Assembly (NCBI RefSeq): GCF_001429285.1
Contig: NZ_LMJJ01000003.1
Coordinates: 263,256-327,255, forward strand
Direction of reading: 5' to 3'
DNA: 64,000 nucleotides
Source of the DNA: Ensifer sp. Root278
GTDB taxonomy: Bacteria > Pseudomonadota > Alphaproteobacteria > Rhizobiales > Rhizobiaceae
A program made the translations under genes and the position numbers. The notes under the pieces were generated by a model. That model worked only from the letters and a program-made list of their open reading frames with translations. It made no database searches and was not told the origin of the DNA. Of the stretch, positions 16,454-27,544 are shown piece after piece. Numbering within the stretch: the first letter of the stretch is position 1; each line of letters begins with the position of its first letter.

Positions 16454-17221
16454 TCAGCAAACCATCGCACTTGAGTGATCGTGCACTTCTCCGCCAAATA
16501 GCGGAGCGAGGGTAGGTTCGGAGAGCAGAAACCCTTGAACATGTGTTGCTCCCGCGGCCTGCGCGGCTTCAAACTGCGCATAGGTTTCGACGCCTTCAAT
16601 GACCACGACCGGGGCGACGCAGGATGCGAGACCCACCATGTGCGAGAGAAAGCGCTCCGCGTCGTCACGACCCAGACGCAAAAAGAATCCGTCGATCTTC
16701 ACGATGTCGACGGGCAGCGACAAAAGCGCCTCAGGTGTCGAGAACCCAGTGCCAAAGTCGTCGACGGCGATCCTGTAACCAAGCGCCTGCACACTTTGCA
16801 GAAACCGGCCGGCTATCGGAAGTCCCGATACGGGCAGACTTTCCGTCAACTCGAGCACAAGCCGCGATGCAAATCTCGTATTTGCAGACAGCAGATCGAA
16901 GAGAAGTGCTCTGTTGCGTTCGTCGGAAATACTTTCGACTGAAATGTTGCACCCGAGGACACCGGATGGCTGGCACGCGAGCCAGTCAAAAGCGAGGGCG
17001 AGCATATGCCTGTCAAGCGCGGCAACACGACCTGCCGCCTCCAGATAGCCTATGAACTCGCTGGCTGCCATGATCTCGCCATCGGGTTTGACGAGCCTTC
17101 CCAGGCATTCCGAGTAAAGGACGCGGCCGACGTCGGCGACTGAGTTGATGTGTTGAAGAGAAAAGCCGACACGTCCCTGTTTCATTGCGTGGTCGAAGGC
17201 TTCCGCAACACGATCAAACAT
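16454..17221 (-). CDS. EAL-domain protein (putative c-di-GMP phosphodiesterase)
   Basis: A 255-residue stand-alone EAL domain without GGDEF or sensor domains. The signature reads ECL-R (residues 38-42) rather than EAL-R, keeping the metal-binding glutamate. Other catalytic landmarks are present: CNIS (asparagine), LELTE, DDFGTGF (154-160), IVKIDG (lysine) and VIEGVET, so activity is plausible. I use ATG 17221, which has AAGGCGG upstream. It is about 220 bp upstream of and codirectional with bgsBA; since BgsA-type synthases are switched on by c-di-GMP, local control of polymer synthesis is a fair inference. Confidence 0.85.
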   Translation of the reverse strand: MFDRVAEAFDHAMKQGRVGFSLQHINSVADVGRVLYSECLGRLVKPDGEIMAASEFIGYLEAAGRVAALDRHMLALAFDWLACQPSGVLGCNISVESISDERNRALLFDLLSANTRFASRLVLELTESLPVSGLPIAGRFLQSVQALGYRIAVDDFGTGFSTPEALLSLPVDIVKIDGFFLRLGRDDAERFLSHMVGLASCVAPVVVIEGVETYAQFEAAQAAGATHVQGFLLSEPTLAPLFGGEVHDHSSAMVC

Positions 17222-17287
17222 TCGAATTCCGCCTTGTTTGGCAACCGGCCCGACAACAATCACCGGAGCCGGCTGCCTGTCTTTGTT

Positions 17288-18022
17288 TTACTGGACGCTT
17301 TCTACTTCCGGATCCGTTTCTACTTCCGGATCCGTCTCATCCACCGTCGATGGCGGCAGCGTCTCGCGGATTTCGTCGATCTTGCCGACCGCAGGGCCAA
17401 CGCCGAGTATCTCCTTGGCTTCATCGACCATGTCGTCAGTCACCACACCGTCCTTGGTGAAGCTGGCAAGCGCATCACGCAGCGCTTCGTCACTCAGCGC
17501 CGGGTCCGTGGGGATGGCATCCTCACCGTTTTCAGCCTCAAACTCGGCATAGGCGATCGCATAGGCCCGAACCCCGGCCATCTTGGGATCGTTCGAATTG
17601 AGGTAAGCGTGGTAATTCCGGTTGAGCGAACCAAAGCCCGGCGCGTTCCCCGGCGTTACCGGTTCAACAACCGGATCCAACTCCACCGGCGCCGATTTGA
17701 CGACCTTCTCGGCCTTCGCCGGCTTGGACGCTTTTTCCTTGCCGCTTGATGTGTGGGTCTTCTTATGCGATTTCTCGCCGGACTTGTTTCCCTTCGTCTC
17801 CTTGCTTCCGCGCGCATTATCGGACTTGCCGTGGCCGGAACTGCCACCACGATCACTGCCGTGGCCGCCACCATGGTCACCACCGTTTCCGCCACCATGG
17901 TCGCCGCCGTTGCCGCCCTTGGCATAGGCGAAACCGTTCAGCCCCAAATTGCCGCCAGCCACCGGCGCGATTGCCAGTGTCAGTGTCATGATGCTTCGCG
18001 CGATCAGTCTCGTCATGGCCAT
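17288..18022 (-). CDS. Exported Gly/His-rich hypothetical protein
   Basis: A 244-residue protein with a Sec signal peptide (MTRLIARSIMTLTLAIAPVAGG...GFAYAKG). A low-complexity region of GGDHGGGNGG repeats (about residues 36-65) is followed by a Lys/Ser-rich stretch and then a folded-looking acidic domain (NRNYHAYLNSNDPKMAGVRAY, ALSDEALRDALASFTKDG). The tail carries a short tandem TDPEVE repeat. AAGGAG precedes the ATG. It is divergent from the histidine kinase gene and shares its upstream region, which contains an AGGTCC direct-repeat site. A similar small Gly-rich exported protein lies on the other side of the two-component genes. Confidence 0.7.
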   Translation of the reverse strand: MAMTRLIARSIMTLTLAIAPVAGGNLGLNGFAYAKGGNGGDHGGGNGGDHGGGHGSDRGGSSGHGKSDNARGSKETKGNKSGEKSHKKTHTSSGKEKASKPAKAEKVVKSAPVELDPVVEPVTPGNAPGFGSLNRNYHAYLNSNDPKMAGVRAYAIAYAEFEAENGEDAIPTDPALSDEALRDALASFTKDGVVTDDMVDEAKEILGVGPAVGKIDEIRETLPPSTVDETDPEVETDPEVESVQ

Positions 18023-18152
18023 GATAATCTCCTTATTCCAACTTGCTGTTCACTGTCCTTTCGCGGACTCAGGCGAACGATCATTGATGCACGGACGATA
18101 TCTGCGCCCCGGACACGGCGCCATCGACCCCAGACCATTGCCTTCGCGCTTG

Positions 18153-18186
18153 GGACTTAGGTCCGGGCCCAAAGCATCAAAGGTCC
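18153..18186 (+). promoter_or_regulatory. Candidate operator: AGGTCC direct repeat, copy 1
   Basis: GGACTTAGGTCC and AAAGGTCC with their AGGTCC cores 22 bp apart (18159 and 18181), in the divergent gap between the Gly/His-rich protein and the histidine kinase. Four similar sites occur at 20954, 21316, 22070 and 26052. The 21-22 bp spacing (two helix turns) would suit a dimeric NarL-type regulator. Confidence 0.5.
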
Positions 18187-18251
18187 GATCAAGCTCGCGT
18201 CGATCGCCCTGCCATTGACCGCGTTTCGAGAGTGGTTAGGTTGAGCTGGGC

Positions 18252-19688
18252 TTGCTACAATCGTCGCGCCGCACGAGCCGGCGGCCCGATCCGAGAGACC
18301 TGGTGCGCTTCAATCAACTTATCACCCGCTGGAATTCTCAATCGCTCGCCAGGCAGTTTCTGCTGATTGGGGGAGCAGTCTCCGCATGCGCCATGGTGTT
18401 GATCGGAGCCTTTGTTTCGAACCGGATCGAAGATGCGGTCACCCGGAACTCGGCCGCGACGACTGCACTCTATGTCGATAGTGTGATTGCGCCGCTGCTG
18501 CCCGACATGCAGAGGAACGAAGTCCTAGACGGGACCGTGGCACGCGCGCTGGATGAGACCCTCGGCCAAGGCGCACTGGGTGACCGGCTTCTCTCTTTCC
18601 GCCTTTGGCGCGCGGACGGCACGCTCCTCTATTCGAGTGATCGGGCCGCTGACGGCACGAAGGTTGAGCTCAGCGGTGAATTGCAAACCGCATTTTCCGG
18701 CAAGATGGCCGCGCGCTTCGATCGGGAAAGGAACATAGCGACTGATAAAGGTTCAAGGGTACCGGCGCTTGTGATCTACAATCCCGTACTGCAGCCCTGG
18801 TCCGGGCAGGTGGTTGCCGTGTCGGAATTCCACGAGGTCGCCAATGAGTTTCAGCAAAGTCTCAATGAGGCGCGCATGCATACTTGGTTGGCGGTCGCGG
18901 CCTTCACACTTGCCTTCTTTGTCGTGCTGTCGGCAATCGTGCTTCGCGGTAGCAAGACGATCGAGAGCCAGCGCCATGCCCTCAAGCAACGGGTCGAGGA
19001 ACTCTCGGAATCGCTCGCGCAGAACGAAAAGTTGCGGGGTCGCCTCCAACGCGCTTCGCAGCGCGCCACCGCGTTGAACGAAAGTTATCTGAGACGTATC
19101 GGAGCGGACCTGCATGATGGCCCGGCCCAACTCGTCGCCTACGCCTCGCTCAGGTTGGATAGTGAAGCCTTGAAGCGCAGCAAAACGCCGGCCGGCACGC
19201 GCGACCGCGAAATTGGTGCGATAAAGGCGAGCTTGGACGAAGCGATGCAGGAGATTCGCACGATCTGCGGCGGCCTGGTCCTTCCGCAGATAGAAACGGC
19301 GGGTCTGACCGAAATCCTGCAGCGGTGCGTAAAGGCGCATCAGCAGCGGACTGGTTCACCCGTCGAGCTGCACTTGACGAAGCCTCCCGAACGCCTCTCG
19401 CAGGCGGCGAAAATATGCATCTACCGGTTCGTGCAAGAGACCCTCAACAACGGCTTTCACCACGCCGGCGGTGTCGGACAGCGGGTTACGCAGCGGACGG
19501 ATGGCGACCGTGTCACGATCGAGGTTACCGATAGTGGACCCGGTTTTGACCCGGACACAGTTCTGCCCACAAGTCTTGGTCTTGCCGGCTTGCGAGAACG
19601 GATCGAAAGTCTCGGAGGAACGTTCGAGCTCGTTGTGGCAGCGACCGGTACAACCGTTCGCATGACGACCAGCGTCAAGGAGATATGA
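18252..19688 (+). CDS. NarL-family sensor histidine kinase
   Basis: A 478-residue membrane kinase: a helix near residues 35-55 ([20 protein letters not shown]), a periplasmic sensor of about 160 residues, a second helix near 215-235 ([20 protein letters not shown]), a coiled coil, then a HisKA_3 dimerisation domain with the phospho-accepting histidine in [11 protein letters not shown] and an HATPase_c domain (N box [10 protein letters not shown] boxes DSGPGFD and GLAGLRERI). The start is uncertain: a TTG at 18252 gives the frame shown. It overlaps its response regulator by 4 bases, so both act as one system; the signal is unknown. Confidence 0.9.
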
Positions 19689-20335
19689 CAATCATGGTGT
19701 TTCCCATTCGCGTTGCTATCGTGGACGATCACCCCTTGTTTCGGGAAGGTGTGACGCGGAGCCTGTCGGAGATCGAGGGCTTTGAAATTGTCGCCGAGGG
19801 CAGCTCGAAGGACGATGCCACCCAGATCGCGGAGCGCCTTGGACCGGATATCATGCTCATGGATATCTCCATGCCCGGTGGTGGTTTGGAGGCCATACCG
19901 GCGATCCTGAAAATCGCCCCATCACAGAAGATTATCATGCTCACCGTTTCCGAAGACGGCGACGACGTGACAACTGCGCTGGATCGAGGTGCCACCGGCT
20001 ATGTGCTGAAGGGCGTCGGTGCAAGAGCGCTTGCCGAGGTCATTCGCACCGTGGCTTCGGGAGAGCGCTATGTGGCGCCGACCTTGTCTGCCAAGCTTCT
20101 GTCCAGCCGGACACCAGCGGCAGGCGGCAAGTCCGGCCTGATCGCCGGTCTAACGCCTCGTGAAAGGGAAGTTCTGGAATTGGTGGCAGCAGGTATGAGC
20201 AACAAGCATGTCGCAATCCAACTGGACCTGCAGGAAAAGACCGTAAAGCATCATATGACGCAGATCATGACAAAGCTGGGTGTCGGCAACCGCACTGAAG
20301 CGGCTATGGTACTACGCGACGCGCGCGAAGTCTGA
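19685..20335 (+). CDS. NarL/LuxR-family response regulator
   Basis: A 216-residue two-domain regulator. The receiver has the acidic pair in AIVDDHP, the phospho-aspartate in [10 protein letters not shown], and the conserved threonine (MLTVSE) and lysine (YVLKGV). The C-terminal GerE/LuxR helix-turn-helix begins [22 protein letters not shown] and ends [22 protein letters not shown]. Coupled by a 4-bp overlap to the kinase gene. AGGTCC direct-repeat sites upstream of the flanking genes are the best candidates for its targets. Confidence 0.92.
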
Positions 20336-20353
20336 TCCACGTCGAACAAGGAT

Positions 20354-20375
20354 GGCGCAACCGGCTTCGTGCGCC
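20354..20375. terminator. Hairpin between convergent genes
   Basis: GGCGCA / TGCGCC stem with a 10-nt loop in the 49-bp gap between the converging response regulator and Gly-rich protein genes. No T-run, so intrinsic termination is uncertain. Confidence 0.4.
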
Positions 20376-20384
20376 TACCCTCAC

Positions 20385-20837
20385 CTAATGCAAGAATGAA
20401 TCTATCCGTTTTCTGTCGTTTGCCGTCGCGCGGCGGTTGATGATGGTGCGTCCGCGGGCATCCTTCATGATGTAGCGGCCATTCGCGATCTCTTCGGTAA
20501 TGCCGCCTTCGTGGCGAACGCCGACATCCTGTCCATTGGCCTTTGCGTTCCCACGATTGGAGTTCTTGGAACGCTCGCTGTTGGAATTGGAGCGGTCACT
20601 GCCATTTGAACTCCCACCACCGTTCCCGCCGCCGCCTCCACCATTCCCGCCGCCGTTGCCGCCACCGTTCCCGCCATTTCCGCCCCCGCCTCCATTACCA
20701 TTGCCACTGTTGGCGAAGGCGACCGTCTTGACGATCGTAAGCCCAGCGCTCGACGTTTCGAGGCTGTAGGGTAAGGAGATGGCGAGGGTGCAGACTGCCG
20801 GCAAGAATGCTGTCAGGATCATCCGACGCGTGATCAT
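20385..20837 (-). CDS. Exported Gly-rich hypothetical protein
   Basis: A 150-residue protein starting MITRRMILTAFLPAVCTLAISL, an N-terminal export signal, then a low-complexity GNGGGGGNGG region followed by Ser/Asn-rich sequence. The C-terminal domain (GGITEEIANGRYIMKDARGRTIINRRAT, then DRKRIDSF) looks folded and resembles short conserved tails of rhizobial exported proteins. The ATG at 20837 has TTGGAG upstream. It converges on the two-component genes and has an AGGTCC direct-repeat site about 117-146 bp upstream, as the other Gly-rich protein does. Confidence 0.7.
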   Translation of the reverse strand: MITRRMILTAFLPAVCTLAISLPYSLETSSAGLTIVKTVAFANSGNGNGGGGGNGGNGGGNGGGNGGGGGGNGGGSSNGSDRSNSNSERSKNSNRGNAKANGQDVGVRHEGGITEEIANGRYIMKDARGRTIINRRATANDRKRIDSFLH

Positions 20838-20953
20838 AATGTCTCCAAGGTCATTTCGTGCGCAAGCGCACTCAGCGCGGCGGGTAACCAACCGACTTTG
20901 CCCTTGACCGAGACGCACAGTCAACTCGCTCCAGCAAAGATCCTGGCTGCACA

Positions 20954-20983
20954 GGACCTTTCCCTTACCCCGGCTGGACCTTC
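20954..20983 (-). promoter_or_regulatory. Candidate operator: AGGTCC direct repeat, copy 2
   Basis: On the minus strand the site reads GAAGGTCC then GAAAGGTCC, cores 22 bp apart (GGACCT at 20954 and 20976 on the plus strand). It points toward the Gly-rich exported protein starting at 20837. Confidence 0.45.
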
Positions 20984-21122
20984 GTCCCATCCAAGCCAGA
21001 CTATGGTCGGAAGACCGGGCGGGGGTCCGCTGGTGCGATCCGGCGGATCAGCCAGGCAAACGCGCTTGAGCCGGTCTCTGACTGGAGGGTTGCCGGGTTT
21101 AGCCTGATGCCGCCGTCTGGTT

Positions 21123-21146
21123 AAAAAGACGGCTCCCGGAGGAGCC
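21123..21146 (-). terminator. Intrinsic terminator on minus strand
   Basis: Minus-strand GGCTCC-tccg-GGAGCC stem followed by GTCTTTTT, a canonical rho-independent terminator. No protein gene precedes it on that strand within several hundred bases, so it would end an unannotated transcript. Confidence 0.6.
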
Positions 21147-21315
21147 GATGAGGTAAGCGAAGGGGCCAAATGTCAGGATCACCGATCTATGAAGGCTCCT
21201 GGTTGACCCCATTTGAAGGGCATGCTGTTCGGGCGGGGCTAGATATTCGTCGATTCCCGCGCCGGCGTATGGTACTTCTCCAAAAGGTAGAGTGGTGCCA
21301 AAGGTTCCGCCATGG

Positions 21316-21349
21316 GACTTCAGTCTCACTCCTCGCGGCAAAGGTCTTA
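21316..21349 (+). promoter_or_regulatory. Candidate operator: AGGTCC direct repeat, copy 3 (degenerate)
   Basis: ACTTCAGTCT then GCGGCAAAGGTCTTAG, half-sites 21 bp apart (21320 and 21341). Each core departs from AGGTCC in one or two positions, but spacing and flanks match the other copies. Confidence 0.35.
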
Positions 21350-21655
21350 GTTCCGTTGTCGCGCGTTCCGTTCACCCTAGTCTTCCTGTTCAGCCCATGG
21401 CACTTCGGCCCGTACCGCCATGGGAGGGTAGCGGCTTCGGAGCGGTCCTATCGTCCCCGCCCGACGGCTCTGGTGCCGCTGCCCGATCCTTCCGGAGGGT
21501 CGTCAGAAGTACTTTCGAAACCTCTCATCGCGGCGTGAGATAGGTGTCCGGGAATTCTCGTTCTGAAACGGCAAAACTCTCGCCTGGTAGGAATCCCAGA
21601 GGACAAAAGCCTATCGGGCAGCTCCCCTTCCGTTGAGGCTCAGGCGGTCATCGCG

Positions 21656-21690
21656 AAAAAAAGAGCCTCTACCCGCTAAGGAAGAGGCTC
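21656..21690 (-). terminator. Strong intrinsic terminator on minus strand
   Basis: Minus-strand GAGCCTCT stem pairing with AGAGGCTC over a 12-nt loop, followed at once by seven Ts (plus-strand A-run 21656-21662). No minus-strand protein gene lies upstream; a structured segment does. Confidence 0.75.
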
Positions 21691-21790
21691 AGTCGGTGCT
21701 TGCGATTGGCCTCTGCAGCGGGGACTGCATCGAGGGTGGCAATCGCAATGAGAAAAGGGTGACTGAGGCCCCGCCCAAAGACAACTTCCC
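21656..21790 (-). ncRNA. Candidate structured small RNA (minus strand)
   Basis: Immediately upstream of the minus-strand terminator are three nested complementary pairs: GGCTCAGTC (21686-21694) with GACTGAGGCC (21761-21770), TTGCGATTG (21700-21708) with CAATCGCAA (21740-21748), and CCTC-GCA with TGC-GAGG inside. Together they form one long interrupted hairpin ending in a terminator, the layout of many bacterial small RNAs. The 5' end is a guess, and no promoter or known family is recognised. Confidence 0.35.
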
Positions 21791-22069
21791 TAAAGGGACT
21801 AGCCCTGATTAGCCGAAGATATAACCGGGGGCCTGCACAACAAAATGTCGGGCAGCGGTTTAAGAGCGTGGCAGCCGCACACCTTACAATCTATTCCTCA
21901 TGAGCGATTTCAAAGGCAGCGTCCTGCGCAAGAACCAACGTCTCAATCGGAACAGTGGCGTTGCAACAGTCGACCAAAAGGCCTGTCGTCGTATACCAAG
22001 ACGGGCGGACGCCCGGTTGAGGATTAGATTGCTTGTCGGCCTCGCTGCTGGGGTCCTGTCCCACATAAG

Positions 22070-22104
22070 ACCTAAGTCCTATTTGCGCCGGCAAAGGTCC
22101 TACT
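22070..22104 (+). promoter_or_regulatory. Candidate operator: AGGTCC direct repeat, copy 4
   Basis: GACCTAAGTCC then CCGGCAAAGGTCCTAC, cores 21 bp apart (22075 and 22096). It is about 520 bp upstream of the RTX-like gene, with a terminator in between, so it more likely drives a short transcript ending near 22593. Confidence 0.5.
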
Positions 22105-22550
22105 CTGCTTGTGACGCAATTCAATCCCAGAATATCCTAACTACGACCATGGCGTCATCCACCGCCACGGCCGCAAAAGTGGTTCCAGAGTCGCTTGTGA
22201 CGCCTTTCCGGGCGACTCTGGATCACAGCGCCAAACTTGCTCGCAGGTTCATTAATAATAATTAAGAATCCGAACCTGCCGCATCTCATCTCTGCTTTTC
22301 GCTGGGACATTTATGCCAGACGGCTCGGCCGTTCAGCCGCAACGCTATCGATGCCCTTACGCTGATCCGGCTTCGCGAAGCGGCACAACTTCCGATATAT
22401 TAGATAGTCCTTAAGGACGGCTTGAAGGGCCCATACGAGAGGCGTAGCGTCCCAGTCTAAACCAGGTGCCTCAACGTAGAGCACCTGACAAGGCGTGATG
22501 AGAACACGCATAGGGGGGGATTTCCCAGAACAAATCTGCTTTTCCTAAGT

Positions 22551-22593
22551 GGATAGAGGCCATAAAGCTCGAGGGCCCCTATCCCTTTTCTTT
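22551..22593 (+). terminator. Intrinsic terminator before RTX-like gene
   Basis: GGATAGAGGCC pairs with GGCCCCTATCC (one mismatch) over a 12-nt loop, followed by CTTTTCTTT. It would end a plus-strand transcript that contains no recognised gene, just before the ribosome site of the gene at 22625. Confidence 0.7.
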
Positions 22594-22624
22594 GGCCAAT
22601 TCATTTTCGTGGAGGATAACCTCG

Positions 22625-23888
22625 ATGGCGCTGGACATCCAGACTCAAGACATCATCATCGACGAGAGTACTCTACTTCAGGACGACGATATTAACCCGT
22701 CGGATCCGCCTCACGATACCAACCCCACCCTGTTGTATCTCCTAACTCTCGACGATACGGGCGGGCTGACCTCACCAGAGGTCGCTTACCAAGCCAATTT
22801 CGTGCAGGCCTCGGCGAGCGCAGGGGAAACCATCTCCGGGATCGTTCTTGCGCAGGATGCCTCCGGCACACCCTTTTCCAAAACCGTCGGCGTGAACAGC
22901 GGCATCCAAACGGTCGATGGCAACTATGTCCCAACGAATCCCAACGTCGTGATCGGCGTGATCGGAACCTCCGACCCGGACGTCCCGCCCGCTGCTGACG
23001 GGTCGCTCGCCTTTGCGTTTGGGCTGGACCCACAAGCGCCACTAAAGCGGACCTTTACCTGGTTCAGTACGTGCCGCTGCTCCATCCGGATGAGACCGAC
23101 CCGGACGACCGGATCGATCTGACTGATCACGTGGTCGCCTCGGTCGCGGGGACCTCGGTGGTCAGTTTTACCGGTGAGAATGCCCATCCCGGCAGCAATG
23201 AATTCAACCTGCTCAGTTCACCCAGTGACGCATCCAAGCAGTTGCTGGTGACGGGGCTCGTGCGGTCCTCCCAGGGCGACCCGAACAGCGCGCTGGTCAA
23301 CAGCGAGTGCAACGTGAATCAGCAGGGTTTTGGCGTCGATAACCAGAGCATCCAACCGGACACGGACGGGCAAAATCAACCACTCGGACGCGAAGTGCTG
23401 CAGATTGATTTTGTGACCGGCGGCACCCCCGATGCAGGTGATGGCGCGGACATCGCGTACGGCAGCCATCTCGAAAACATCACGCAGGCTGGCTTCATAA
23501 TCAACCAGCTCACGCCGTCTCAATCGGCTGGGCGGGCGGACATCGCGATCCGCGCCTTCAACGTTCAGGGCAACGAGCAAGGCTCGGACTTCTTCAACGG
23601 CAGCCCGACCACCGCCGTGGACATCACCAGCATCAAGCTGACCGGTGCATCGGGGTTTGCTTCCACCATCACCGCGGACGGAACCTATGCCACCGCGAGC
23701 GGCAACGTCACCATCACCGGGCTCAGCGGGACCGGGAATGCTGTCACCATCACCGGGCTGGATAACACCACAACCGTCGATATCACTACCAGCGGCTTTA
23801 TGGATCGACTGCATGTCGAGTCGGTCGATTCGAATGAAGGGATCGACATCACCGAGGTCCATTTCTCAGCGACGAACACCAACGCCCA
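22625..23888 (+). pseudogene. Large RTX/cadherin-like secreted protein, broken N-terminal part
   Basis: Begins with ATG 22625 behind TGGAGG and encodes an acidic, Asp/Thr-rich beta protein (IIIDESTLLQDDDINPS, LLTLDDTGGLTSPEV) like the repeat units of giant type-I-secreted adhesins; the unit resembles DUF5801-type repeats. A one-base shift near 23040-23055 separates LAFAFGLDPQA from ADLYLVQYVPLLHPDETDPDDRIDL, after which the protein continues in another frame. At about 23888 it runs directly into the end of an ABC transporter gene. The C-terminal repeats and secretion signal are gone, so no functional product is expected. Confidence 0.75.
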
Positions 23889-24362
23889 CAGATCGGCGAG
23901 TCGGGCGCGACACTGTCGGGCGGGCAGCGTCAACGCATCGGGCTAGCGAGGGCACTCTACGGCGATCCGGCACTCCTTATCCTGGACGAACCAAATTCCA
24001 ATCTCGACCGCGAAGGTGAGGACGCGTTGATCGCAGCCATCAGCGCGATCAAGGCCGCAGGCACGACGATTATTCTGATCGCGCACCGACCGAGCATCAT
24101 GCAGAAAGTTGACAAGATACTGGTCCTCAACCGAGGCCAACAAGATCTCTTCGGTCCGCGTGACCATGTCTTCAACGAACTTGCCAAGCGCAACGGCGCG
24201 GTAACCCGGATCACAGCCATAGCCGCGAACCAAGGCGTCGGCGCTGGTCCGGCCGGTCGATTCACAGTCCGAAATTCGTCACCTATTTCAGAAATTGTTG
24301 CCGGAAGCATTTCAGGAGGAGATGCAGACCCGGCACAAGCACCCGAATGGAAAAAGATATGA
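23889..24362 (+). pseudogene. Type I secretion ABC transporter, C-terminal remnant
   Basis: The last 157 codons of a PrtD/HlyB-type exporter ATPase: signature LSGGQRQRIGLARAL, Walker B LLILDEPNSNLD, H-loop IAHRP and the closing KILVLNRGQ. The membrane domain and Walker A are missing; the fragment starts exactly where the RTX-like gene breaks off, so an internal deletion joined the two. It overlaps the start of the HlyD gene by 16 bp, the original operon spacing. Confidence 0.85.
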
Positions 24363-25690
24363 CCGTTGTGCCGCTACCCGCGCCACCGTCCCCGATGCCG
24401 AAGCCGATACCCTTGCGTATCGCGGGCGTGACGTGGGCCGGATTTGCCATCATGTTCCTGTTCTTCGGGATGGCCGGAGGTTGGGCGGCACTGGCGCCGT
24501 TGGACAGCGCCGCAGTGGCACCGGGCGTTGTCAAGGTCGCCGGCGACCGCAAGCTCATCCAGCACCTTGAGGGCGGCATCATCGCGGAGTTGAACGCCGC
24601 CAACGGTGACATCGTCAAGGCTGGCAAGGTTCTGATCCGGCTCGACGACACGCAAGCCAAAGCACAACTGGACCTGGTTCAGAACCGGATCACAACGCGC
24701 GAGGCGCTGGCCGCGCGGCTCAGGGCGGAGCGTGACGACAAGGCCGAGATCGACTTTGATCCGGCGCTGCTCGCAAACCGTGCGACCGCTGCCAAGGACG
24801 CGGTGGCCACGCAGCGCGACGTGTTCGCGGCAAAGCGCCACAACTTGAACGACGAGCGGACCATTCTCGGACAACGCCGCCACCAGGCCGAGGAGGAGAT
24901 AACCGGACTGGAGAGACTCGTTGCGACCGAGGACAAGCAGATCGAGGCTCTCGAAGGGGAGACCAAGGATCTTGAAACTCTGCTCAAGAAAGCACTCACC
25001 ACCCGCGCACGGAACCTGCTGCTCAGACAACAACAGCGCGAGATCGAGGGGGAGCGCGCTACCAATATCGCGGCGATCGCTCGTGCCAGAAGCGCCATGG
25101 CCGAAATTGACGCGCAGATTCTGAACCTTAACACCGTGCGGCTGAAAGATGCTGTCGAGGAATTGAGCAAGGTCGAGGCGGATTTGTTCGACCTCAAACA
25201 GCAGGAGCGTTCCGCCAACGACGTGCTTGCCCGCACCGACATCGTCGCACCGGTTGACGGTATCATCATGGACCTGAAGGTCCACACGGACGGCGGTGTC
25301 GTGAAGCCCGGCGAAACGTTAATGACCATGGTGCCTCTCGGACAGCAACTCGTGGTCGAGGCTATGGTCAGGCCGGAGGATGTCGAGACGATCGCCCCCG
25401 GACAGCCGGCGCGTGTCAGCTTTCCAGCCTTCGCACGCTACAACCTGCCGCCACTCGACGGCGTCGTGGAGATCGTATCGGCTGACCGCATGGTAGAGGA
25501 ACGCAGCGGGGTGCCATACTTCACCGCAACCGTGTTGATTGACAGAAACGAACTCACCAAGCTCGAGGGTCGCAAACTGTTGCCCGGCATGTCGAGCGAG
25601 GCAATGATCCGGACGGGTGTCCGCACCGTGCTTGCCTACCTTGCAGAACCAATCACGCAGAACTTCCGCCGGGCGCTACGGGAAAAATAG
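24347..25690 (+). CDS. HlyD/PrtE-family type I secretion adaptor
   Basis: A 447-residue membrane-fusion protein: short cytosolic N-terminus, one membrane helix (AGFAIMFLFFGMAGGWAALAP), the family hallmark GVVKVAGDRKLIQHLEGGIIAEL, a long coiled coil (about residues 100-290, matching type I adaptors), then ARTDIVAPVDGIIMDLKVHTDGGVVKPGE and a C-terminal beta barrel. The gene looks intact, but its ABC partner upstream is truncated and no TolC gene follows, so the system cannot work unless another ATPase substitutes. An ATG 12 bases inside (MTVVPLP) is an alternative start. Confidence 0.9.
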   Translation: MEKDMTVVPLPAPPSPMPKPIPLRIAGVTWAGFAIMFLFFGMAGGWAALAPLDSAAVAPGVVKVAGDRKLIQHLEGGIIAELNAANGDIVKAGKVLIRLDDTQAKAQLDLVQNRITTREALAARLRAERDDKAEIDFDPALLANRATAAKDAVATQRDVFAAKRHNLNDERTILGQRRHQAEEEITGLERLVATEDKQIEALEGETKDLETLLKKALTTRARNLLLRQQQREIEGERATNIAAIARARSAMAEIDAQILNLNTVRLKDAVEELSKVEADLFDLKQQERSANDVLARTDIVAPVDGIIMDLKVHTDGGVVKPGETLMTMVPLGQQLVVEAMVRPEDVETIAPGQPARVSFPAFARYNLPPLDGVVEIVSADRMVEERSGVPYFTATVLIDRNELTKLEGRKLLPGMSSEAMIRTGVRTVLAYLAEPITQNFRRALREK

Positions 25691-26462
25691 GGAGCCAGCC
25701 CGGTTGCGGTAGAAGAGCGACGAACGGGTTCGTTTGGCTTTGGGCGAGCAAGAAGGGACGTGATGAGCCTCTGGTCGTTCAACCGAGCGGATGATGCGCG
25801 GATAGATTTGCTCCTCAAATGCAATGCGACGCCCGACACCACGGTCCAACATCTGCCAAGAAAGCCACGCCACGCGCGTCGTTGCCCGATATTCGTTCCG
25901 ACCTCAATTCTCCCGCATAGCCCTACGAAACGTTCGTGTTCGACCGACAGAGCTCAGAGGTCTGTCCCTTATTCCGATGGGGAGCCCAACGGGTGCACTT
26001 GATTGGCGCAGTGGTCGATTTTCGGGGAGGCATTTCTTTGAGATCTTATCAGACCTAGGTCCGGTGCGCTCTGGCAAAGGTCCTAGCGGCGTTGCTCATT
26101 CCGAATCCGCCCGCCATGCTGTTTAAGCGCCAAAGAGCCAAGGACTGCCCTCCGTCATTGGCGCTAGTGATCCCAGAGCGCTCGCCCCAGTCCCATTCGA
26201 TTAAGCGCTCTGGGATCCCCCCACTCCTCGTTCCGGCACAAACGCGTTTGGTCATTGGAGGGCCGAGACGCGGCTGTCGAGCGAGTGACCTCGGCAACAT
26301 CACTCTTGACGCTACTGATCTCACTGGTCGGATTGAGGATTTCCATCTCGCGGTCCTGCCGCGCTCAATTGCCGCTACAGAGCCTGCACGGTCATATTCA
26401 TGTTGCTACCCCTCGGATTGTGGAGGACACTGGCCTACAGGCGTTACCTGAAGGCGGAAACG
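25691..26462. other. Non-coding stretch with operator-like site and long inverted repeat
   Basis: No convincing gene. It holds the fifth AGGTCC direct-repeat site (26052-26085) and a perfect 14-bp inverted repeat GATCCCAGAGCGCT / AGCGCTCTGGGATC with a 31-nt spacer (26169-26227). The repeat lies in what would be the leader of the small gene at 26463 if transcription starts near the site. Confidence 0.55.
26052..26085 (+). promoter_or_regulatory. Candidate operator: AGGTCC direct repeat, copy 5
   Basis: GACCTAGGTCC then CTGGCAAAGGTCCTAG, cores 21 bp apart (26057 and 26078). This is the best-conserved copy. The next plus-strand frame is the 85-residue protein at 26463. Confidence 0.5.
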
Positions 26463-26720
26463 ATGGATTTTGAGAAGATCGGACGGGCACGCCTGATGAT
26501 GCGGCTGCCGAGGCATCGGCAACAGCTTGCGGAGCTAAGGTTCCTTTCCCTGAGTACCCTGTTAGAGGCTTATGGCATCGCGGTGATCACCCGGGATGAA
26601 CTCCGAGAACACGCGATCTCAGGCGAGCCTCTGACTGCCCGATACGAGAACGACTGTCAGGCGATCGAAGACAAAGTCGTGAGTTTGCTTACCAATGTTA
26701 GTCCTCGCTTTGTCAATTGA
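26463..26720 (+). CDS. Hypothetical protein (85 aa)
   Basis: Starts at ATG 26463 with AAGGCGG about 6 bases upstream. The peptide (MDFEKIGRARLMMRLPRHRQ...) is basic at the N-terminus and largely helical, with LLEAYGIAVITRDELREHA and a C-terminal amphipathic helix (CQAIEDKVVSLLTN). No signal peptide or membrane segment. No family recognised. Codon use fits the neighbourhood; it sits alone between the secretion remnant and the gnd scar. Confidence 0.5.
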   Translation: MDFEKIGRARLMMRLPRHRQQLAELRFLSLSTLLEAYGIAVITRDELREHAISGEPLTARYENDCQAIEDKVVSLLTNVSPRFVN

Positions 26721-26775: not shown

Positions 26776-27242
26776 CTAAAAGCCACTGCCCCAAGGTCCG
26801 TGATGGCTGTCGGCACCGTCAATGCGGTCGAAGCCGTGGGCGCCGAAGAAGTCGCGCTGCGCCTGGATGACATTGGCCGTACCGCGGCCGCGGCGGTAGC
26901 TGTCGAAGTAGCCGAGCGCCGAGGCAAGCGCCGGCACCGGCAGGCCGCCGAGAACGGCAGCCGAAACGACGCGGCGCAGGGCTGCGTCGGTTTGCTTGAC
27001 CATGGCGGCGAAGACCGGGGTGACGATCAGGTTGGCGGCATCCGGCGCCTTGGTGAACGCGGTGGTGATCTCGTCGAGGAACTGCGAGCGGATGATGCAG
27101 CCGGCGCGCCAGATCTTGGCGATGGTCGGCATCGGCAGGTTCCAGTTGAACTCCTTCGATGCCGCCGATAGGCGCCGATCTTGGCGGCCAGCAGCGCGCT
27201 TTCGAGATCCCTGATGAAGGCTGCCTTGTCGGCCACCTTGAA
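26776..27242 (-). pseudogene. gnd: 6-phosphogluconate dehydrogenase, C-terminal fragment
   Basis: Encodes FKVADKAAFIRDLESALLAAKI, then, after a small deletion and frame change near 27160-27170, SAASKEFNWNLPMPTIAKIWRAGCIIRSQFLDEI through RGRGTANVIQAQRDFFGAHGFDR and the terminal HGPWGSGF: the C-terminal domain of decarboxylating 6-phosphogluconate dehydrogenase. About 9 residues (the AYAQGF- part) are missing at the break. The N-terminal cofactor domain is absent. It faces another gnd piece in the opposite orientation. Confidence 0.85.
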
Positions 27243-27428
27243 GGCGCCGACTTGCTGAAGGCCGCTGATCCTTTGACCGGCAAACCGATCGTCGATTTGA
27301 TCCTCGACAAGGCCGGCCAGAAGGGCACCGGCAAGTGGTCGGTGATCGAGGCGCAGAACATGGGCGTGCCGGCAACCGGCATCGAGGCGGCGGTTGCGGC
27401 GCGCAGCATCTCTTCGATGAAGGTGCCG
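27243..27428 (+). pseudogene. gnd: 6-phosphogluconate dehydrogenase, internal fragment (inverted)
   Basis: Reads GADLLKAADPLTGKPIVDLI, LDKAGQKGTGKWSVIEAQNMGVPATGIEAAVAARSISSMK, the segment of Gnd that normally lies just before the piece found at 26776-27242, but on the opposite strand. The joint near 27242 is therefore an inversion breakpoint. It ends where pxpC sequence begins. Confidence 0.85.
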
Positions 27429-27544
27429 ATCTCCAGTGCCACGGGATCCATTGCTCCTGAGGCCGTGACCCCGATATTTCGATAGCCCGGACGCCCCCGA
27501 TCCTGGACAGTGTTCAGCGGGCCGGTTTCGAGGATTTCGATCAC
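27429..27544 (-). pseudogene. pxpC: PxpC/KipA (AHS2-family) N-terminal fragment
   Basis: Starts at ATG 27544, overlapping the pxpB stop by 4 bases, and encodes MIEILETGPLNTVQDRGRPGYRNIGV then SGAMDPVALEIG, the unmistakable start of the biotin-dependent carboxyltransferase/KipA family. After about 38 residues it runs into the inverted gnd piece, so some 280 residues are lost. PxpC is needed for the PxpABC 5-oxoprolinase. Confidence 0.85.

Follow-up and report, generated by a model that had tools for sequence, protein, structure and literature searches.

Do the repeated AGGTCC sites around a two-component system of Ensifer sp. Root278 belong to the response regulator of that system, and how far does its regulon reach? 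The locus lies on contig NZ_LMJJ01000003.1 in a 64-kb stretch (positions 263,256 to 327,255), here called the window, whose own coordinates are used below. From our comparative analyses, the sites are likely operators for the NarL/FixJ-type response regulator whose gene occupies 19685-20335, and this regulator would control its own genes as well as dispersed small proteins and RNA leaders. To judge from sequence, the site is probably the switch by which the system acts, in these nitrogen-fixing soil bacteria, on its own genes and on a dozen or so small genes and structured RNAs, scattered and for the most part uncharacterised. The genes at the centre of the locus are the following.

17288..18022, minus strand: Gly/His-rich protein 1, putative divergent target; an open reading frame (ORF) whose orthologues follow a minus-strand half-site at 10 sites.
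18252..19688, plus strand: HisKA_3-type sensor histidine kinase, with Pfam HisKA_3 and HATPase_c above cut-off.
19685..20335, plus strand: NarL/FixJ-type response regulator, presumed to bind the sites; Pfam Response_reg (1.1e-21) and GerE (2.8e-21).
20385..20840, minus strand: Gly-rich protein 2; an ORF with no Pfam match.

The two kinase domains and the adjoining position of its gene, together with the receiver domain and GerE helix-turn-helix of the regulator, place the pair in the NarL/FixJ family. The recognition helix of the regulator is invariant in all 15 orthologues compared, L074 standing outside this comparison.

Anatomy and promoter frame of the sites

With the GAC start of the left palindrome as site coordinate, the five sites of the preliminary description are all present, at 18154 (+), 20986 (−), 21316 (+), 22069 (+) and 26052 (+), and their right half-sites end at 18186, 20954, 21347, 22100 and 26083, respectively. 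The spacings given there also hold: the cores are 21 bp apart at 21316, 22069 and 26052, and 22 bp apart at 18154 and 20986. The sites had been read as two equal direct repeats; instead, the full site consists of one 16-bp palindrome with the consensus TAGGACCTAGGTCCTA and one half-site, GCAAAGGTCC, 21-22 bp on from core to core. Among 83 sites from other genomes, on which a two-block matrix was trained, the spacing was 21 bp in 52, 22 bp in 24 and wider in 7. Scoring this matrix across the window gave the predicted operators below, including a divergent site that the earlier list lacked.

18132..18163, minus strand: divergent site (18163), comprising the shared palindrome and a minus-strand half-site (AGACCATTGC on the plus strand), facing Gly-rich gene 1; score 34.8.
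18151..18186, plus strand: palindrome and half-site facing the kinase gene; score 38.6.
20954..21016, minus strand: weak operator upstream of Gly-rich protein 2, with three repeats 22 bp apart and three weak matrix readings (17.0, 14.9 and 12.3); a like arrangement occurs in G014.
21316..21347, plus strand: predicted operator site; score 41.9; counterparts in L060 and L061.
22069..22100, plus strand: predicted operator site; score 44.5.
26052..26083, plus strand: predicted operator site; score 40.0.

The site at 20986 is weak in having three mismatches, and its third repeat lies 22 bp upstream. The next-best match in the window scores 6.7, below the maximum of 11.8 over 40 Markov-1 random windows, which bears out the remark that nothing comparable occurs elsewhere in the 64 kb. 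This matrix test is partly circular, because the training sites were picked with a pattern derived from the window sites; that search pattern did not contain the palindrome's outer T and A. A strict pattern gave two matches in the window versus none in 100 dinucleotide shuffles.

Downstream of the half-site, the TTG of a −35-like element follows at exactly 8 bp in 49 of 89 sites, and TTG(A/C/T)C is found in 36 of the 89. This geometry would suit an activator, as had been proposed. The intergenic region between Gly-rich gene 1 and the kinase gene holds a single palindrome with a half-site on either side, facing both genes. A likely kinase promoter was placed in the same region.

18215..18242, plus strand: likely kinase promoter, TTGACC-N16-TAGGTT, conserved across the genus alignment of kinase upstream regions.

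Conservation, distribution and link to the regulator

Orthologues of the pair occur in Ensifer, Sinorhizobium, Rhizobium, Pararhizobium and Ciceribacter, by contig titles. We scanned 50 of the 53 orthologous loci returned (L205-L207 were left out), about nine of which come from the same strains as the genus genomes. The palindrome lies 1.25-1.75 kb upstream of the regulator in 45 of the 50, so the conservation upstream of orthologues that was checked for is there; the left half-site is kept in 41, the right in 42 and both in 40. All 16 genus loci examined have the palindrome. At G014, where no kinase gene is annotated, the site stands 154 bp upstream of the regulator, and the best match at G015 reaches only about 53% identity. 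L062 and L209 (Ensifer adhaerens W2-B9) likewise show no annotated kinase gene between the Gly-rich gene and the regulator; this strain keeps the locus site and other regulon sites, and is a natural kinase-less case.

In genome searches, up to two mismatches were allowed, a palindrome read from both sides counted twice, and the reversed pattern served as control. In 16 genus genomes, the 21-bp spacing gave 61 matches versus 4 in the control and the 22-bp spacing 30 versus 0, far above the random genome-wide frequency that had been set beforehand as grounds for rejecting the motif. A set of 35 named genomes gave 66 matches versus 8, with a match in 26 of them; five of the genomes with a match appear to duplicate genus genomes already searched. 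The genome of strain Root278 itself holds 14 sites, 5 in the window and 9 outside, so that the regulon is not the local one that had been suggested.

Two search results were set aside. An initial loose pattern for the own genome gave 8 matches versus 14 in the reversed control, was useless alone and was replaced by the tighter patterns. Recurrent matches of the form AGGTCCCAATCGAA..ATCAAAGGTCT, 7 of the 23 in one search, were dropped because the own-genome copy (L005) lies inside an ORF beside transposase-like ORFs and the other copies repeat its sequence. Two further pattern matches carry AGGTCTTTTCGAGCC.

The link to the regulator was assessed in 121 family genomes, drawn evenly, of which 10 have a regulator orthologue (E <= 1e-75). 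The motif was found in 5 of these 10 (17 matches) and in 5 of the 111 others (6 matches; one-sided Fisher p 2.7e-4), with 18 matches of the reversed control in the 121 genomes. The earlier suggestion of a response-regulator operator thus gains support from this co-occurrence and from the palindrome before the orthologous pair; what falls away is its restriction to one locus.

Target genes and structured RNA leaders

ORFs lying no more than 650 nt from any of 97 sites were clustered, ignoring clusters that read the kinase gene in another frame. Behind the sites stand an 'EIPDFV' family of about 88 amino acids (12 sites), a small membrane protein of about 60 amino acids (11), Gly-rich protein 1 (10), a 'GRARL' family of about 85 amino acids (8, including one in the window), a small membrane protein 'NPLTIGIYLA' (6) and, by sequence, an alpha/beta hydrolase (5). 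Three small-protein families, searched with one or two representatives each, gave no Pfam or NCBIfam match above cut-off. Hidden Markov models (HMMs) locate EIPDFV, membrane or GRARL genes in the own genome close to sites on C11, C20, C22, C34 and C43. DNA ligase and other stress-type genes neighbour the C34 sites; from these neighbours and the kinds of targets, we would guess at a role of the regulon in stress.

Three window sites front DNA without annotated proteins, and short or non-coding targets had been proposed for them. The sequence evidence supports this: 21316 and 22069 front RNA candidates, and 26052 fronts, instead of bare DNA, a leader followed by an 85-amino-acid ORF. The features concerned are listed here.

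21385..21500, plus strand: class-C structured leader, apparently orphan; 10-leader alignment with 13 pairs, 3 with changes on both sides.
22136..22232, plus strand: class-B two-hairpin RNA, a small RNA candidate, conserved in L060, L061 and L062 (three other species).
26114..26221, plus strand: class-A two-hairpin RNA leader; model R1, 101 bits, E 7.0e-17, but part of the model's own alignment.
26463..26720, plus strand: 85-amino-acid small protein of the 'GRARL' family; HMM 4.3e-39, but belonging to the HMM's own alignment; related ORFs stand behind sites elsewhere.

The class-A alignment comprises 22 sequences with two helices, in which 92.9% of cells are paired versus 90.2% in shuffles, and its covariation score exceeds that of 500/500 shuffles. 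The model has 32 matches in 12 of the 16 genomes; 28 lie at known sites, 22 of these being in the model's own alignment, and of the 4 not preselected by site, 2 have a degenerate site. G006 carries four class-A units in tandem in about 2.3 kb; the next site follows about 0.2 kb after one unit, which leaves no room for a gene. At L141:3641-6122, four class-A units with sites lie within about 2.5 kb, and about 0.2 kb separates two of them. Class B has 26 pairs, 3 with changes on both sides (6 sequences), and no conserved ORF. The overlapping ORF 21900-22265 was rejected as the target of 22069, being broken by in-frame stops in relatives. Class C folds weakly (−14.4 kcal/mol), and the small membrane-protein ORF that usually follows it has no HMM match in the window. 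Class-C palindromes (window 21295-21316 and other loci) have an extra conserved element, GGTTCC(A/G)CCATGGGAC, directly upstream. Rfam gave no match at gathering score, either in the window or in five loci from the own genome or genus genomes.

Stand-alone small RNAs at all sites were rejected as a reading, as most leaders run into small ORFs. It is conceivable, if rather doubtful, that structured RNAs form a multi-copy family under the command of the regulator, with free-standing small RNAs among its members (class B and the tandem class-A units of G006). This would give a hybrid transcriptional and post-transcriptional stress circuit, with leaders detached from small-protein genes or doubling as their regulators.

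Other features surround these targets. An EAL-domain protein gene (16454..17263, minus strand; Pfam EAL 1.4e-39) neighbours Gly-rich gene 1, as it does in an S. meliloti record. On S. meliloti pSymB (L208), the system adjoins minCDE, with the EAL and L,D-transpeptidase genes on the opposite side. What looks like a fused, broken remnant spans 22625-24362, ahead of an intact HlyD gene: a repeat-type secreted protein begins there in two frames that overlap and passes into part of the C-terminus of a type I secretion ATPase. Rearranged fragments at 26776-27544 resemble pieces of a 6-phosphogluconate dehydrogenase gene.

Alternative readings, known systems and significance

In the mechanism that we propose, the phosphorylated regulator would occupy the site as two dimers on the same face of the DNA, one at the palindrome TAGGACCTAGGTCCTA and the other at the half-site GCAAAGGTCC; from the half-site, which immediately precedes a weak sigma-70 −35 element, polymerase would be recruited. 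In the kinase intergenic region, one palindrome would serve two outward half-sites, and the system would thus control both its own operon and the Gly-rich gene that diverges from it. At the other sites, the module would drive dispersed stress-type small proteins behind structured leaders, as well as a few RNAs of leader type for which no ORF is recognisable.

Several findings weigh against this proposal. Nine of the 35 named genomes, including S. meliloti and S. medicae, have no site of the 21-bp pattern, 5 of the 50 orthologous loci lack the palindrome, and 5 of the 10 regulator-bearing family genomes have no site at two mismatches. No target was found at own-genome site C10:44235. Regulation on the kinase side may differ, because the half-site there lies far upstream of the likely −35 element. 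Further pair types in the class-A helices are not above shuffles (413/500), and two class-A matches have no site. What the sequences themselves show is the sites and their conservation, the promoter frame, the co-occurrence with the regulator and the targets, whereas binding by the regulator, its dependence on phosphorylation, activation, the signal and transcription are inferred throughout.

The imperfect co-occurrence could mean that the sites belong to a different regulator, with the two-component genes being just one target among others. Several genus genomes do have a second response regulator, about 45% identical, and autoregulation is deduced from sequence. The site nevertheless precedes this very pair in 45 of 50 loci, genomes without the orthologue have matches no higher than the reversed control (6 versus 18), and the palindrome with its GAC-N4-GTC core suits a LuxR/NarL-family dimer; we regard another owner as unlikely. 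Slightly less probable still is that the site is a repressor operator. The sign of regulation is read from geometry, and the kinase-upstream site lies near a near-consensus promoter; at most other targets, however, the half-site ends 8 bp before the −35-like element without overlapping it, an arrangement that appears to resemble the activator geometry mapped for CrbR (below). The sites might also belong to dispersed palindromic mobile or repeat elements that carry a promoter and a hairpin and have no regulatory role of their own, since genomes hold several copies each of the hairpin leaders, at times in tandem as in G006, with strong stems and no U-tract. Yet one operator type goes with three leader types and also occurs without a leader, the operator is kept in place before the kinase across genera while its flanks diverge, and the same small-protein families stand behind sites in different genomes, which makes this very improbable. 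Control by the NarL/FixJ-type regulator is the reading that we retain.

The closest parallel concerns CrbR of Pseudomonas, an independently tested LuxR-family regulator that depends on an inverted repeat, GAC-N4-GTC, located at −52 to −36, where it directly precedes an RpoD promoter (PMC5715377). The CrbS/CrbR system of Pseudomonas and Vibrio, with its ACTU motif, resembles ours in a LuxR-family response regulator, in the GAC-N4-GTC core and in a regulon motif found via comparative genomics (PMC5715377). The systems differ in that the palindrome of our sites is set one repeat farther upstream, the half-site 21-22 bp on abuts the promoter, no SLC5 or STAC domains are reported in this kinase unlike CrbS, and the targets are small proteins and RNA leaders instead of acetate genes. 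With the NCBIfam model for ErdR, the regulator scores 97.3 bits versus a cut-off of 390, which places it outside CrbR/ErdR. The MctS/MctR system of rhizobia is homologous to this pair, yet a different system, both scores being far below cut-off (kinase 87.4 bits versus 700, its best kinase model; regulator 142.6 versus 300, its second-best). NarX/NarL shares the HisKA_3 kinase and NarL-type regulator, with a different motif here and a regulator score of 161.1 bits, below the cut-off of 250. In GacS/GacA with the Rsm small RNAs, a LuxR-family two-component regulator drives several structured RNAs; here, unlike there, most RNAs look like leaders of small-protein genes, and the UvrY/SirA/GacA model gives 123.7 versus a cut-off of 280. 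The regulator ranks as an ordinary NarL/FixJ-family member, and it matches none of the named NCBIfam equivalogs against which it was tested.

Searches of an open-access library, with few subscription papers covered, yielded no description of the motif, promoter architecture, regulon, small-protein families or leaders. An apparently undescribed two-component system of model symbionts here gains a predicted binding motif, a promoter architecture and a list of targets open to testing, among them several structured leaders that match nothing in Rfam and the three small-protein families that match neither Pfam nor NCBIfam. Genetic work is possible at once in S. meliloti and S. fredii, because the system and the palindrome are present there.

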